DNA of 34,808 nt. It comes from Candidatus Thermoplasmatota archaeon. GTDB lineage: Archaea; Thermoplasmatota; SW-10-69-26; JACQPN01; JAIVGT01. Positions 16,120 through 19,221 of this stretch are shown piece by piece. Positions within the stretch are counted from its first letter, which is position 1, and every line of letters begins with the position of its first letter. The position numbers and the translations under genes are program-made. Under the pieces are notes generated by a model. The model searched no databases, was not told the origin of the DNA, and saw only the letters and a program-made list of their open reading frames with translations. Location of the stretch: the NCBI GenBank assembly GCA_035541015.1, contig DATLFM010000071.1, positions 1-34,808 of the forward strand, given 5' to 3'.

Positions 16120-16211
16120 GGCGTGAGTTGCATCCGAAAGTCCCCGGCGGGCGGGAGTCCAAACCCGAACTTCCGTCACATACATCCTCCCGAAGCGACG
16201 GAAGGCTTGCC

Positions 16212-16934
16212 GTGCGCCGCCTCACGATGACCCTTGCGCTTGCCCTGCTCGTCCTCGTCCCCGTCGCGCTGGCCGGAGGAAGCCCCGTCCGGACGCAGTC
16301 GGCGACGGTCGTCGAGGGCCACACGGTCCTCGCCGACATCGTCCGGCAATCGACCGTCTCCTTTGCCGCCGTCGCCGGCACGGCCGAGGTCCGCACGACC
16401 GTCCGCGGCGTTCTGTGGTTCAACGACGAGGAGCTGTTCCCCGGCGTGACGCTCTCGCGCGAGGCGCAGGGCAACTTCGTGCTTGCCACGGAGGCCGGCG
16501 ACGACGATCCGCGGCGGCATCTGCAGCGCGCGCGGTACGTCGAGAGCTACGCGTTTGTCGATCCAAACGCCCAGTCGTGGATCGTGGACCGCTACGAGTA
16601 CGACGGCTGCGGGGTCGCGGTCGCGCTCGTCTCCGCAAGCGTGGGCTGCGGGACCGAGCCCATCTTCGTCGTGGCCGTGGGCCCCGACGCCTTCGATCCC
16701 ACGCTGTCGCGCCGGTACAACTTCGTGAACCTCGTGCGCCTGGACGCGCTCGACGCGGTGCGGGCCAACGGTCAGCGGCATCCCGACCCGTTCAACGGCC
16801 CGCCCACGGGCGACAGCCACCCGCCGGACGTCGCAGCGCACAACCACGACACGGCGAAGGTCGACCTCTGGTTCTCGCGCGAACGGCCGCCGGAGCCCGC
16901 GGTGCGCCGGTTCCTGTTCGTGGATACGGCTTAG
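16212..16934 (+). CDS. Secreted protein of unknown function
   Basis: The 240-aa product (GTG 16212; ATG 16227 alternative) has an RR-containing n-region and hydrophobic core (MTLALALLVLVPVALA) ending AGG, a good signal peptide. The mature domain is about 215 residues with beta-strand segments ('TVSFAAVAGTAEVRTTVRGVLWF', 'SWIVDRYEYDGCGVAVALVSASVGC', 'EPIFVVAVGPDAFDP') and a Cys pair that could form a disulphide. It ends with a His/Asp/Pro-rich loop and VRRFLFVDTA. No TM anchor or family motif is recognised. It follows a possible operator repeat and may be co-transcribed with the PAS gene 24 nt downstream. Confidence 0.65.
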   Translation: MRRLTMTLALALLVLVPVALAGGSPVRTQSATVVEGHTVLADIVRQSTVSFAAVAGTAEVRTTVRGVLWFNDEELFPGVTLSREAQGNFVLATEAGDDDPRRHLQRARYVESYAFVDPNAQSWIVDRYEYDGCGVAVALVSASVGCGTEPIFVVAVGPDAFDPTLSRRYNFVNLVRLDALDAVRANGQRHPDPFNGPPTGDSHPPDVAAHNHDTAKVDLWFSRERPPEPAVRRFLFVDTA

Positions 16935-16958
16935 CGCGGCTCGCCGCGTGTCCGTGAT

Positions 16959-17819
16959 TTGCCCACAGACACTCGCTTTTCCCACGCGACGGGTGTCCTC
17001 GCTGGGGCGAGGTTCTTGCCGCTCGGAGCGTCCACGGAGGCAATCGAGACGGTCACCGGATTGCGTCCGCAGGCCCTGCTGCGCGAGATCCCGATCCCCT
17101 TTTGCATCCTGGGCGGCGAGGAGCTCCGCCTTGTGTACGCGAACGTGGCGTTCGAACGGACCTTCCGTGGGCCCGTCGTTGCGGGATTGGCCGTCGCCGA
17201 CGTCCTTTCGACTCCCGTGGTCGTGGCCCTGCGCGATCTCGTGCTGCGGGTCCGGACCCAGGGGTACGGCGAGGCGCTTGAGGTCTGGACGCCCACGGGG
17301 CGCTTCGATTTCCTGGCCACCGCCCTTGCCGAGCCCCCGGGCGCCGTCGCCGTCGTCGCTCGCGAGGCCGAGGCGCATGCCGCCGCGCAGGAGCGCCTGA
17401 GCGGCGAGCTTGCCGCCGAGCGCGCCAAGGTGGCGACGAGCTACGCCGAGCGCGCCCTCGTGGAGGCGGCGATCGAGGCCGTGGGGGCGCTGCTTTGCGT
17501 CGTGAACGCCGACGGGCGGATCGTCGAAGCAAACTCCGCCTGGCGAGTGCACCTCGGTCACAAGCCTTCGTCGCTTGCGGGCCGGCGGCTCCTCGACGTC
17601 GTGGTGCCGCAAAGTCAATCGGCCGCGCAGGAGATCGTCGACGGCGCGCTCACGGGCCGCTCGGGACGCTGCGCGGCCACCTTCCGTCACGCCGACCAGC
17701 GCGCCGTGGCCATCGCGTTGCATGCGGTCGCCGATCCCCGGCCGGGCCCGCCCCGCGCGTTGCTCGTTGGGCAGGCGATCGAGGCCGCCAGCCTTCACGC
17801 GGCCGATCCGACCTCGTAG
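16959..17819 (+). CDS. Double-PAS sensor protein without output domain
   Basis: The 286-aa product contains two PAS-like domains: about residues 40-130 ('LREIPIPFCILGGEELRLVYANVAFERTFRG') and about 170-275 ('AVGALLCVVNADGRIVEANSAWRVHLGHKPSSLAGRRLLDVV'). A helical Ala/Glu-rich linker (ARAEAHAAAQERLSGELAAERAKV) joins them, as in signalling coiled coils. The second is a canonical PAS with 'd..G.i..aN.a......G......l.g'. There is no histidine kinase, GGDEF or DNA-binding domain, so it is either a sensing subunit or acts through partner proteins. The first codon is TTG at 16959; no ATG or GTG precedes PAS1 in this frame, so the start is uncertain. Confidence 0.7.
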   Translation: MPTDTRFSHATGVLAGARFLPLGASTEAIETVTGLRPQALLREIPIPFCILGGEELRLVYANVAFERTFRGPVVAGLAVADVLSTPVVVALRDLVLRVRTQGYGEALEVWTPTGRFDFLATALAEPPGAVAVVAREAEAHAAAQERLSGELAAERAKVATSYAERALVEAAIEAVGALLCVVNADGRIVEANSAWRVHLGHKPSSLAGRRLLDVVVPQSQSAAQEIVDGALTGRSGRCAATFRHADQRAVAIALHAVADPRPGPPRALLVGQAIEAASLHAADPTS

Positions 17820-17850
17820 AATTGCCCCGCCTGGATCGGTCTCTTCGGCA

Positions 17851-17868
17851 TAGCCCCGCCTGGATTCG
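17851..17868 (-). repeat. 18-nt duplicate of the tRNA-Gln 3' end
   Basis: These 18 bases are identical to 18113-18130, which cover the 3' acceptor strand and T-arm 3' half of the tRNA-Gln gene plus one flanking base. A shorter, diverged copy (GCCCCGCCTGGAT) sits at 17824-17836. None of the rest of the tRNA is present. Such 3'-end copies are typical of integrase attachment sites or decayed tRNA duplications. The 262-bp interval between copies contains hairpins only. Confidence 0.8.
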
Positions 17869-18104
17869 CAGCGTCTCGCTGCGCTCGACGCTTCCTCCGG
17901 TTCGGTGCCCGCCGCCTCGCGGCGACCGAACCGTCGGACTTCGCGGAACCGCTTCGCGGTTCCGCTTCGCCGTCGGCCGCTGCGCGTCCGCCGGCTTCGC
18001 GGAATCGCCTTGCTCGGCCTTTGGCCTCGCGTCGGCGATCCCGCTCGTCGAATCCTGGCGGGGAACCCCACAATCGCCGCGGCCATCGGCTGTGGCCGAT
18101 GGCC
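17867..18104 (-). other. Cluster of five strong hairpins downstream of tRNA-Gln (possible structured RNA or repeat)
   Basis: No protein gene is supported here. In order on the + strand: CGCAGCG/CGCTGCG (17867-17883, 3-nt loop); a 9-bp stem CGGTTCGGT/ACCGAACCG (17898-17933) enclosing CGCCGC/GCGGCG; CGGAACCGC/GCGGTTCCG (17944-17964, perfect 9 bp); an 11-bp stem with one mismatch (about 17999-18043) enclosing GGCC/GGCC; and GGCCATCGGC/GCCGATGGCC (18081-18104, perfect 10 bp). The single mismatch in the fourth stem becomes G-U if transcribed from the minus strand, the tRNA strand. The region lies directly 3' of the tRNA. Confidence 0.65.
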
Positions 18105-18113
18105 GAAGGAAGT

Positions 18114-18185
18114 AGCCCCGCCTGGATTCGAACCAGGGTCAAGAGATCCAGAGTCTCCTATGATTGGCCGCTACACCACGGGGCT
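18114..18185 (-). tRNA. tRNA-Gln (anticodon CTG)
   Basis: The 72-nt minus-strand sequence folds as a complete tRNA. The acceptor stem is AGCCCCG with CGGGGCT; the D-arm contains GTAGCGGCC; the anticodon stem GGAGA/TCTCT flanks the loop CTCTGGA with anticodon CTG (decodes CAG, Gln); the T-arm is CCTGG-TTCGAAT-CCAGG. CCA is not encoded, and there is no intron. A TATA-like island (18214-18223) lies about 33 nt upstream of the 5' end. Its 3' end is copied at 17851-17868. Confidence 0.95.
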
Positions 18186-18213
18186 GGTGCGGCGCGAATA
18201 CCGCCGACCGCCC

Positions 18214-18223
18214 TTTAAATATT
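18214..18223. promoter_or_regulatory. TATA island between tRNA-Gln and DJ-1/PfpI gene
   Basis: TTTAAATATT is the only AT-rich box in the 88-bp gap between the divergent tRNA and the DJ-1 gene. It is about 33 nt from the tRNA 5' end and about 56 nt from ATG 18274, so it could serve both directions. Confidence 0.55.
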
Positions 18224-18273: not shown

Positions 18274-18819
18274 ATGCCGGGCAAGCTTCTGGGCAAGCAG
18301 GTCCTGATGGTGATCGCGCCGGAGAACTTCCGCGACGAGGAGTACGCCGAGCCGCGGCGGATTCTCGAGCGCGAGGGCGCGGTCGTCAAGGTCGCTTCGA
18401 CCAAAGTCGTGCAGGCGACAGGCATGCTTGGCCTCAAGGTGAACGTTGGGAGCAGCCTGGAGGGACTGAAGGTCCAGGACTACGACGCCGTCGTCGTCGT
18501 GGGCGGAAGCGGCAGCCCGCGACACCTTTGGACCTCGCAGACGCTCCACGGGCTCGTGCGCGAGGCCGACCGCTTGGGAAAGGTCGTCGCCGCCATCTGC
18601 CTGTCGCCGGCCGTCCTCGCAAAGGCGGGACTTTTGGCGGGCAAGAAGGCCACGGTCTACGACGGCGAAGGCGCGATGGACGAGCTGCGGCGTGGCGGAG
18701 CCACCCTGGCCTCCGACGTGCTCGTGCGCGACGGGCGCATCATCACCGCCAGCGGGCCGGAAGCGGCCGCGGCCTTCGGAGATGCCCTCGTCGAAGCGCT
18801 CACGGCGACGCCGAAGTAG
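18274..18819 (+). CDS. DJ-1/PfpI family protein
   Basis: The 181-aa product fits the family in length and motifs: an N-terminal strand with the conserved Glu (VLMVIAPENFRDEEY, E about residue 17), 'DYDAVVVVGGSGSPRHLW', and the nucleophile elbow VAAICLSPAVLAKAGLL with the reactive Cys. The usual His after that Cys (CHG in PfpI/DJ-1 proteases and glyoxalases) is replaced by Leu-Ser, so a Cys-His dyad must come from elsewhere or be absent. Family activities include deglycase/glyoxalase and chaperone roles; none can be assigned. It is divergent from tRNA-Gln. Confidence 0.9.
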   Translation: MPGKLLGKQVLMVIAPENFRDEEYAEPRRILEREGAVVKVASTKVVQATGMLGLKVNVGSSLEGLKVQDYDAVVVVGGSGSPRHLWTSQTLHGLVREADRLGKVVAAICLSPAVLAKAGLLAGKKATVYDGEGAMDELRRGGATLASDVLVRDGRIITASGPEAAAAFGDALVEALTATPK

Positions 18820-18849
18820 CCGCGCGAGGGCCGATTCAAAGCGAAACCC

Positions 18850-18857
18850 GTTTTAGC
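18850..18857 (+). promoter_or_regulatory. TATA-like box of the H1-like gene
   Basis: GTTTTAGC is centred about 27 nt before GTG 18880 and 29 nt before ATG 18883, consistent with a leaderless mRNA. Confidence 0.45.
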
Positions 18858-18882
18858 GGCGAGGCTGTACCCTCGCGCGGTG

Positions 18883-19221
18883 ATGGCTCTGGCCGCCGAT
18901 CCCGTCGTTCCGAAGAAAGTGGAAGAAACGCCTGCGCCCGCGCCGACGACCGTGACTCCCGAGCCGTCGGCGCTGGACCGCATCACGGACCTGCTCACGC
19001 CGCCCGTTCCCGCGCCTCCGGCCGGCCCCGAGCCCGGATTTGTCATGGAGCCCGCCCGCGCCAAGGCCAAGAAGGCCAAGAAGAAGCTCAAGAAGAGTGC
19101 CAGCAAGAAGAGGGGTACGAAAATGGCGAAGAAAAAGACCATGCGCAAGGGCGCAGCCCGCAAGAAGACCGCGAAGAAGAAGACCGCCAAGAAGAAAGGC
19201 GGCGCGAAGAAGCGCCGATAG
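18883..19221 (+). CDS. Lysine-rich histone H1-like protein
   Basis: The 112-aa product has two halves. Residues 1-60 are Pro/Glu/Thr-rich and contain a short helix (ALDRITDLLTPPV). Residues 60-112 are almost entirely Lys, Ala, Arg, Thr and Gly with repeats such as KKTAKKKTAKKK and end AKKRR. This looks like the C-terminal tail of histone H1 and bacterial Hc1-type DNA-compacting proteins. DNA or RNA binding by charge is likely, but there is no globular domain. ATG 18883 follows GTG 18880. An internal ATG (19123) would give a 32-aa basic peptide. The gene ends 25 nt before a hairpin-plus-T terminator. Confidence 0.75.
   Translation: MALAADPVVPKKVEETPAPAPTTVTPEPSALDRITDLLTPPVPAPPAGPEPGFVMEPARAKAKKAKKKLKKSASKKRGTKMAKKKTMRKGAARKKTAKKKTAKKKGGAKKRR

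Follow-up and report, generated by a model that had tools for sequence, protein, structure and literature searches.

Gene-less hairpin arrays with copies of the gene end at tRNA genes of Thermoplasmatota

Beside the tRNA-Gln(CTG) gene of a Thermoplasmatota archaeon lies a gene-less array of hairpins that ends in an exact copy of the tRNA 3' end, and the same layout recurs at other tRNA genes of this genome and of its phylum. On balance, we regard it as probable that such arrays form a family of tiny (~60–270 bp), hairpin-rich, non-autonomous elements that insert at the ends of genes and copy the end in doing so. The array was studied within a window of 34,808 nucleotides, the whole stretch of DNA that was analysed (contig DATLFM010000071.1 of assembly GCA_035541015.1). 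The genome to which it belongs (hereafter G000; 114 contigs) encodes, among others, PAC2, GCHY-1/FolE2-like, PHO4, and RfcS proteins, and the analysed archaeal genomes, G000 included, are metagenome-assembled genomes (MAGs). The RfcS of G000 has its best matches (60–70%) in MAGs of Methanomassiliicoccales and other Thermoplasmata. An RfcS 67% identical to it is encoded by a contig titled 'Proteobacteria bacterium' (L204), a record that is probably mislabelled or a mixed bin.

An earlier note, made from the letters of the window alone, had described a tRNA-Gln(CUG) gene on the minus strand, a neighbouring segment with hairpins and no plausible gene or integrase, and an exact 18-nt as well as a shorter, diverged copy of the tRNA 3' end further out, all of which were recovered here (Table 1). 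The open frames that run across the element (e.g., 16176–18086 on the minus and 17495–18115 on the plus strand) resemble the usual spurious frames of high-GC DNA, and no integrase was found in the window segment. The strong folding was also confirmed, but six hairpins rather than five strong stems sit between the tRNA and the exact copy (segment 17822–18110), and of the two stems given as perfect, one has the reported 10 bp while the other has 11 bp instead of 9. An inverted 16-nt copy of the tRNA 3' end had been overlooked; it pairs with the distal exact direct copy (D1) in a 15-bp stem that closes an array of five inner hairpins. Compared with shuffled sequences, the fold of the element reached z = −7.9 as RNA and z = −6.7 as DNA, and none of 200 shuffles equalled it. 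D1 has a score of 18, whereas foreign tRNA ends compared with the same type of flank gave 13 in 0.4% and 16 in 0.2% of the cases. Besides the tRNA, an Rfam search of the window segment returned just weak, non-significant matches, and no phage match to it was obtained. The decayed and the exact direct copy probably represent two rounds of insertion.

Table 1. Features of the window at tRNA-Gln(CTG), listed in the direction of tRNA transcription
Feature	Position	Strand	Evidence and remarks
TATTTAAAG, putative archaeal box-A-like promoter	18213..18221	-	~30 nt upstream of tRNA-Gln; read from the sequence
tRNA-Gln(CTG), target gene	18112..18185	-	ARAGORN; Rfam RF00005, 56.7 bits
Own 3' end of tRNA-Gln (D0)	18113–18130		
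First hairpin (Pa), few nt past tRNA-Gln	18080..18105	-	Perfect 11-bp stem 18080–18090/18095–18105, loop 4 nt; repeat search, fold
Inverted copy (I) of the tRNA-Gln 3' end	18048..18063	-	15–16 nt, one mismatch, 94%; inverted repeats and fold
Hairpin with internal loops, apical loop AAA	17999..18044	-	Fold, sequence
Imperfect hairpin, apical loop GCA	17969..17995	-	Fold
Perfect 10-bp hairpin GCGGAACCGC-GAA-GCGGTTCCGC	17943..17965	-	Stem 17943–17952/17956–17965; GNA triloop on the tRNA strand; repeat search, fold
Pc-type hairpin GGTTCGGT-CGCCGC-GAG-GCGGCG-GGC-ACCGAACC	17893..17938	-	3-nt GGC bulge common to other modules; covariance model R1
Hairpin GCGTC-GA-GCGCAGC-GA-GACGC (tandem GA and GCA triloop)	17871..17891	-	Sequence, fold; motif as in the GA-hairpin polarity counts
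Direct copy (D1) of the tRNA-Gln 3' end	17851..17868	-	18 nt, 100%; score 18
Older, diverged direct copy (D2)	17822..17839	-	83%, score 13; 2 nt after a PAS-domain gene (ends 17819)

Among the 43 tRNA genes found in G000, eight (Gly-GCC, Ala-CGC, Gln-CTG, Leu-GAG, Glu-TTC, Leu-CAA, Gly-TCC, and Leu-CAG) carry a 14–19 nt copy of their own 3' end 58–350 nt downstream, with similar hairpins between tRNA and copy and, in Gln, Glu, and Leu-CAA, a clear inverted copy at +33 to +48. Eight aligned G000 modules were used for a covariance model with a two-hairpin fold (R1), in which 22 of the 33 pairs show compensatory changes (covariation of 0.539 vs. 0.160 when shuffled), and the alignment keeps GA-rich internal loops and a 3-nt GGC bulge. 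The model matches the window element, which was not part of its training, at 17895–17965 on the minus strand (37 bits, E = 3.3e−5). Covarying stems had been proposed as a check for a structured RNA; they are present, but do not by themselves separate an RNA from a single-stranded DNA, and they can also come from quasi-palindrome correction. A search of G000 (2.2 Mb) with R1 returned 13 copies. Twelve of them are at tRNA genes, ten on the 3' side and two in antisense on the 5' side (at Val-CAC and at an intron-containing tRNA-Trp that was recognised by eye), and one has no tRNA in sight. The latter (G000:C40:1545–1659, L192) is the sole module without a recognisable tRNA, and adjoins an apparent small zinc-ribbon gene. 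The tRNA-Trp gene (G000:C101, ~18400–18980; L193/L195) was missed by ARAGORN, appears to contain a long intron and to be split once more in the T-loop, and is bordered by outward-facing hairpin modules on either side.

Copies in related genomes, another check proposed at the outset, were found for the layout and not for the module. R1 was positive in G000 alone among the 243 genomes of the phylum that were searched, so that 242 others, including G001 of the same family, gave no match, while end copies recur across the phylum. In a sample of 216 tRNA genes from 33 genomes (partly tRNA-Gln genes picked by similarity), a copy of the own 3' end with a score of at least 13 was located within 300 nt downstream of 35 tRNAs, a few of which may be neighbouring tRNA genes of similar sequence, against ~0.9 expected (0.42% with foreign ends) and three upstream. 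Inverted copies (at least 12) were present downstream of 17 of the sampled tRNAs and upstream of none, and in 18 of the 21 cases with both kinds the inverted copy lay between the tRNA and the direct copy. Within the same 300-nt limit, end copies were found at 12 of 38 tRNAs in G002, 5 of 34 in G003, 7 of 41 in G000, and none of 33 in G001. The compared flanks of G001 and G002 have no neighbouring genes in common, and no precise filled/empty pair of syntenic flanks was obtained from them. The duplication extends into the trailer in 9 of 41 cases (1.1% by chance). Tandem units of ~167 nt also occur, as at tRNA-Glu of G054, where copies lie at +148, +316, and +482, and two different tRNAs of this genome have one common fold with differing stem sequences. 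The layout is thus frequent in the phylum while the hairpin sequences differ, and the elements turn over between relatives.

The same structures are found in mirror image at tRNA 5' ends. A copy (at least 14) of the own 5' end lies further out, with hairpins in between, at 12 of 218 tRNAs, compared with a null of 0.09%; the search used the tRNA 5' end in antisense orientation, and its match at Glu of G054 is a neighbouring tRNA. Counted on the tRNA strand of G000, the ratio of GNA to TNC triloops is 20:2 downstream and 2:11 upstream, and for the tandem-GA-mismatch hairpins of G002 the two orientations stand at 14:2 downstream and 0:10 upstream. Within 300 nt of tRNAs, the density of GA-hairpins is 0.44/kb in G000 and 1.10/kb in G002, i.e., ~70 and ~400 times higher than the respective backgrounds (0.006/kb over 329 kb and 0.003/kb over 399 kb). 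The structured strand therefore runs outward on both sides of the tRNA. This argues against co-transcription of an RNA with the tRNA and favours a process at the DNA level that recognises the acceptor-stem end on either strand. GNA mini-hairpins of the d(GCGAAGC) type are extraordinarily stable as DNA; such stability suggests, without proving it, that the element folds as single-stranded DNA. Terms for these mini-hairpins and for extraordinarily stable DNA hairpins occur in two publications (PMC10527192, PMC6582339).

The polarity bears on the possibility of a functional RNA, which had been one of the original readings of the segment and which we now consider unlikely. The tRNA transcript would run through the element, the inverted and direct copies would mimic the acceptor/T-arm helix, and a small RNA would be freed during tRNA processing, as has reportedly been proposed for the RtT RNA of E. 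coli. The strong conserved fold, the compensatory changes and the G-U pairs on the tRNA strand would fit such an RNA, and an E. coli unit with the same layout is annotated as the small RNA RttR. However, the structures do not keep to the downstream side and the transcribed strand: the mirror elements at the 5' ends are antisense and lie beyond the tRNA transcript. In AT-rich relatives, moreover, the tRNA is followed first by a T-rich, terminator-like trailer and only then by the element. The hairpin loops in G000 are mostly triloops, and conservation at orthologous genes of relatives was not observed, with R1 confined to one genome, end copies missing even from G001, and elements being replaced from one relative to the next. 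RNA k-turns and H/ACA structures were considered as well and rejected, as in our judgement the loops do not fit. A covarying intergenic structure does not prove an RNA, and this caution may be useful elsewhere.

A protein gene of G000 is flanked by a comparable structure, which surfaced as one of the background GA-hairpin matches. On contig C93 (L355, 405–715), a second copy of the final ~32 codons of uS10 lies 212 bp further downstream, with a 116-bp hairpin body in between. The two copies are identical over ~62 nt, while their final 11 codons show differences at seven sense codons and at the stop, every one of them synonymous. As neutral decay of a copied end would not confine the changes to synonymous ones, one end probably has a history of its own as a functional coding end, and the re-coding suggests a case comparable to an integrating element that supplies a gene end of its own. 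A functional gene end borne by the element is pointed to at the uS10 copy only, since the tRNA copies are identical and therefore uninformative in this respect. Relatives are slightly more similar to the distal than to the proximal copy (a weak difference), and a second uS10 end was not found in the 30 relatives in which it was looked for.

Ordinary attachment-site scars, i.e., remnants of tyrosine-integrase elements that entered tRNA 3' ends and lost their genes, could account for part of these observations. The direct copy covers the stretch from T-loop to 3' end, as a classic attB does, direct repeats of a gene 3' end resembling attL/attR are found in the window, in G000, and in the phylum sample, most integrase genes of these genomes adjoin tRNA genes, and the re-coded uS10 end would be cargo of such elements. 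Unrelated remnants would not have one covarying module at a dozen tRNAs, though, nor would they give constant-length tandem units or tRNA 5'-end copies. Tyrosine integrases (PF00589) are present in G000, but none reached the cut-off in G003, which has elements, so the distribution of these enzymes does not follow that of the elements. In G000, G002, and G005, most of the genes for tyrosine integrases are situated within ~5–300 nt of a tRNA 3' end (L309, L311, L314–L316, G002:C18, and G002:C25; at tRNA-Asn of G002 the integrase open frame ends a few nt from the tRNA). The association of integrases and tRNAs is real, but as a source of the elements it was rejected because the junctions are mostly without the structure seen here: only one of eight, at tRNA-Gly of G005, has the inverted-copy/hairpin arrangement. 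We therefore hold such scars to be an improbable explanation. The initial idea of an integration scar retains its attachment at the tRNA 3' end and loses the lone old remnant of a larger element, which is too narrow; a palindromic repeat family targeting tRNA genes and a non-autonomous integration that uses the tRNA 3' end for attachment, also put forward in the earlier note, are supported by the many same-genome inserts with own-end copies, the tandem units, and the re-coded uS10 end. Repeats at tRNA ends thus deserve a closer look before they are read as scars of lost viruses or islands. A viral source was rejected, as 27 pattern matches in IMG/VR look like chance: the best model match had E = 0.18, and a complete hairpin next to a tRNA was present in none of them.

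Purely local mutation, with replication forks stalling at tRNA genes and template switches that produce the copies and perfect the hairpins while nothing moves, seems quite improbable to us. Two snap-back switches would be expected to place an inverted beside a direct copy, the stems are nearly perfect, and the tandem units grow, yet this process leaves unexplained both a module with conserved GA loops and GGC bulge shared by different tRNAs and the exclusively synonymous differences in uS10. Elements driven by REP/RAYT, casposon/CRISPR, or reverse-transcriptase systems, of which the palindromes, the single-strand polarity, and the target duplications at tRNA ends are reminiscent, are very improbable, as G000 and G002, the genomes in which most elements were found, have no Y1_Tnp, Cas1, or RVT_1. 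In the corresponding searches, the Y1 HUH transposase (PF01797) was missing from all six genomes G000–G005 (the control gave matches in five named genomes), Cas1 (PF01867) was positive in G003 alone, and reverse transcriptase (RVT_1) in G014 alone; RAYT/IS200, Cas1, and reverse transcriptase were accordingly rejected as drivers.

In the favoured reading of a family of tiny inserting elements, the element body would be a strand-specific array of hairpins, often closed by an inverted copy of the gene end at which it sits. A trans-acting recombinase would join this body, probably folded as single-stranded DNA, to the acceptor-stem end of the gene, and copying or repair would afterwards duplicate the gene end. 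Each insertion would leave on its far side a copy that reaches from the T-loop to just past the discriminator, sometimes with 8–35 bp of the trailer, so that the tRNA stays intact and the old end is displaced outward. Repeated rounds or unequal crossing-over would generate tandem units. As one module occurs at tRNAs with different ends, the copy of the end apparently derives from the respective target, unlike in the case of an ordinary att-site integrase. From these patterns we infer mobility, a single-stranded DNA intermediate and the trans-acting enzyme. If the elements do move, they would be among the smallest site-specific mobile DNAs and would point to a recombination activity at tRNA gene ends.

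The closest known counterpart is the tyrT/tyrV repeats of E. coli (RttR/RtT RNA, Rfam RF00391). According to our computations, tRNA-Tyr is followed there by three 178-nt units that all terminate in 19 nt copied from the tRNA 3' end (direct copies at +159, +337, and +515 and inverted copies at +59, +237, and +415 for tyrV), just as the window unit ends in a copy of 18 nt. The inverted copy in each unit pairs with the direct one, and between them lie hairpins with GNA triloops and CGAG..CGAG loops. The RF00391 covariance model, with E up to 10, matched the E. coli locus (L319) only, and neither the archaeal loci nor the window; no sequence match between RF00391 and the archaeal elements was obtained. 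With no homology detectable by covariance model, the likeness is one of working or of origin rather than demonstrated membership in one family. The two also differ in that the archaeal layout extends to many tRNA genes per genome, to tRNA 5' ends, and to a protein gene. To our knowledge, the 178-bp repeats have been described at tyrT only, and we know of no mention of their inverted-copy layout. The tyrT repeats are said to be the subject of papers by Egan and Landy (1978) and Boesl and Kersten (1991). In the literature that was searched, the present pattern was not described, and the E. coli tyrT papers did not surface there either. An isolated curiosity of E. coli thereby turns out to exemplify an arrangement common in an archaeal phylum, and the origin of the repeats becomes testable. 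A still wider interpretation, possible but in our view rather doubtful, would have the E. coli tyrT repeats as a fossil member of a minimal class of selfish DNA in Archaea and Bacteria, whose hairpin arrays would move as folded single-stranded DNA, recognise the tRNA acceptor-stem end on either strand, and duplicate this end at each insertion by means of an enzyme new to science.

Other known systems share single traits with the archaeal elements. Integrative elements with attB in tRNA 3' ends (tyrosine recombinases) likewise have a direct repeat from T-loop to 3' end that keeps the tRNA whole, and their replacement of gene ends resembles the synonymous uS10 end, but the archaeal elements have no integrase, measure 60–270 bp, consist of hairpins only, include an inner inverted copy, occur at tRNA 5' ends too, and present one module at different tRNAs. 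Integron attC sites have inverted core sequences paired around a variable hairpin region, with one active strand. By analogy, these and other single-stranded hairpin attachment sites may be compared with the paired inverted cores around hairpins seen here, except that the archaeal core is the tRNA's own end and that no integron integrase or cassette genes were seen. With casposons, the common traits are insertion at tRNA 3' ends and duplication of the target, but the archaeal elements are devoid of terminal inverted repeats of their own, and G000 and G002 of Cas1. REP/REPIN palindromes, mobilised by RAYT, are similar in being short, species-specific and of a defined active strand, and differ from the archaeal elements, which are tied to tRNA ends, copy the target end, and have no RAYT gene.

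Two other palindromes were noted in G000. Five occurrences of the first, TACTGCGCA-n-TGCGCAGTA, lie no more than 600 nt from tRNA genes (Gly-TCC at +227, Leu-TAG at +194, Ser-TGA at +88, and 5' of Lys-TTT and Met), against none in 367 kb of other G000 sequence. Alternating GTATAC..GTATAC palindromes are enriched near tRNA genes, where they flank tRNA-Asn, Leu-GAG, Lys-CTT, Leu-CAA, His, and Ser-GGA, and are found elsewhere too, including twice in the window (13567 and 25391).
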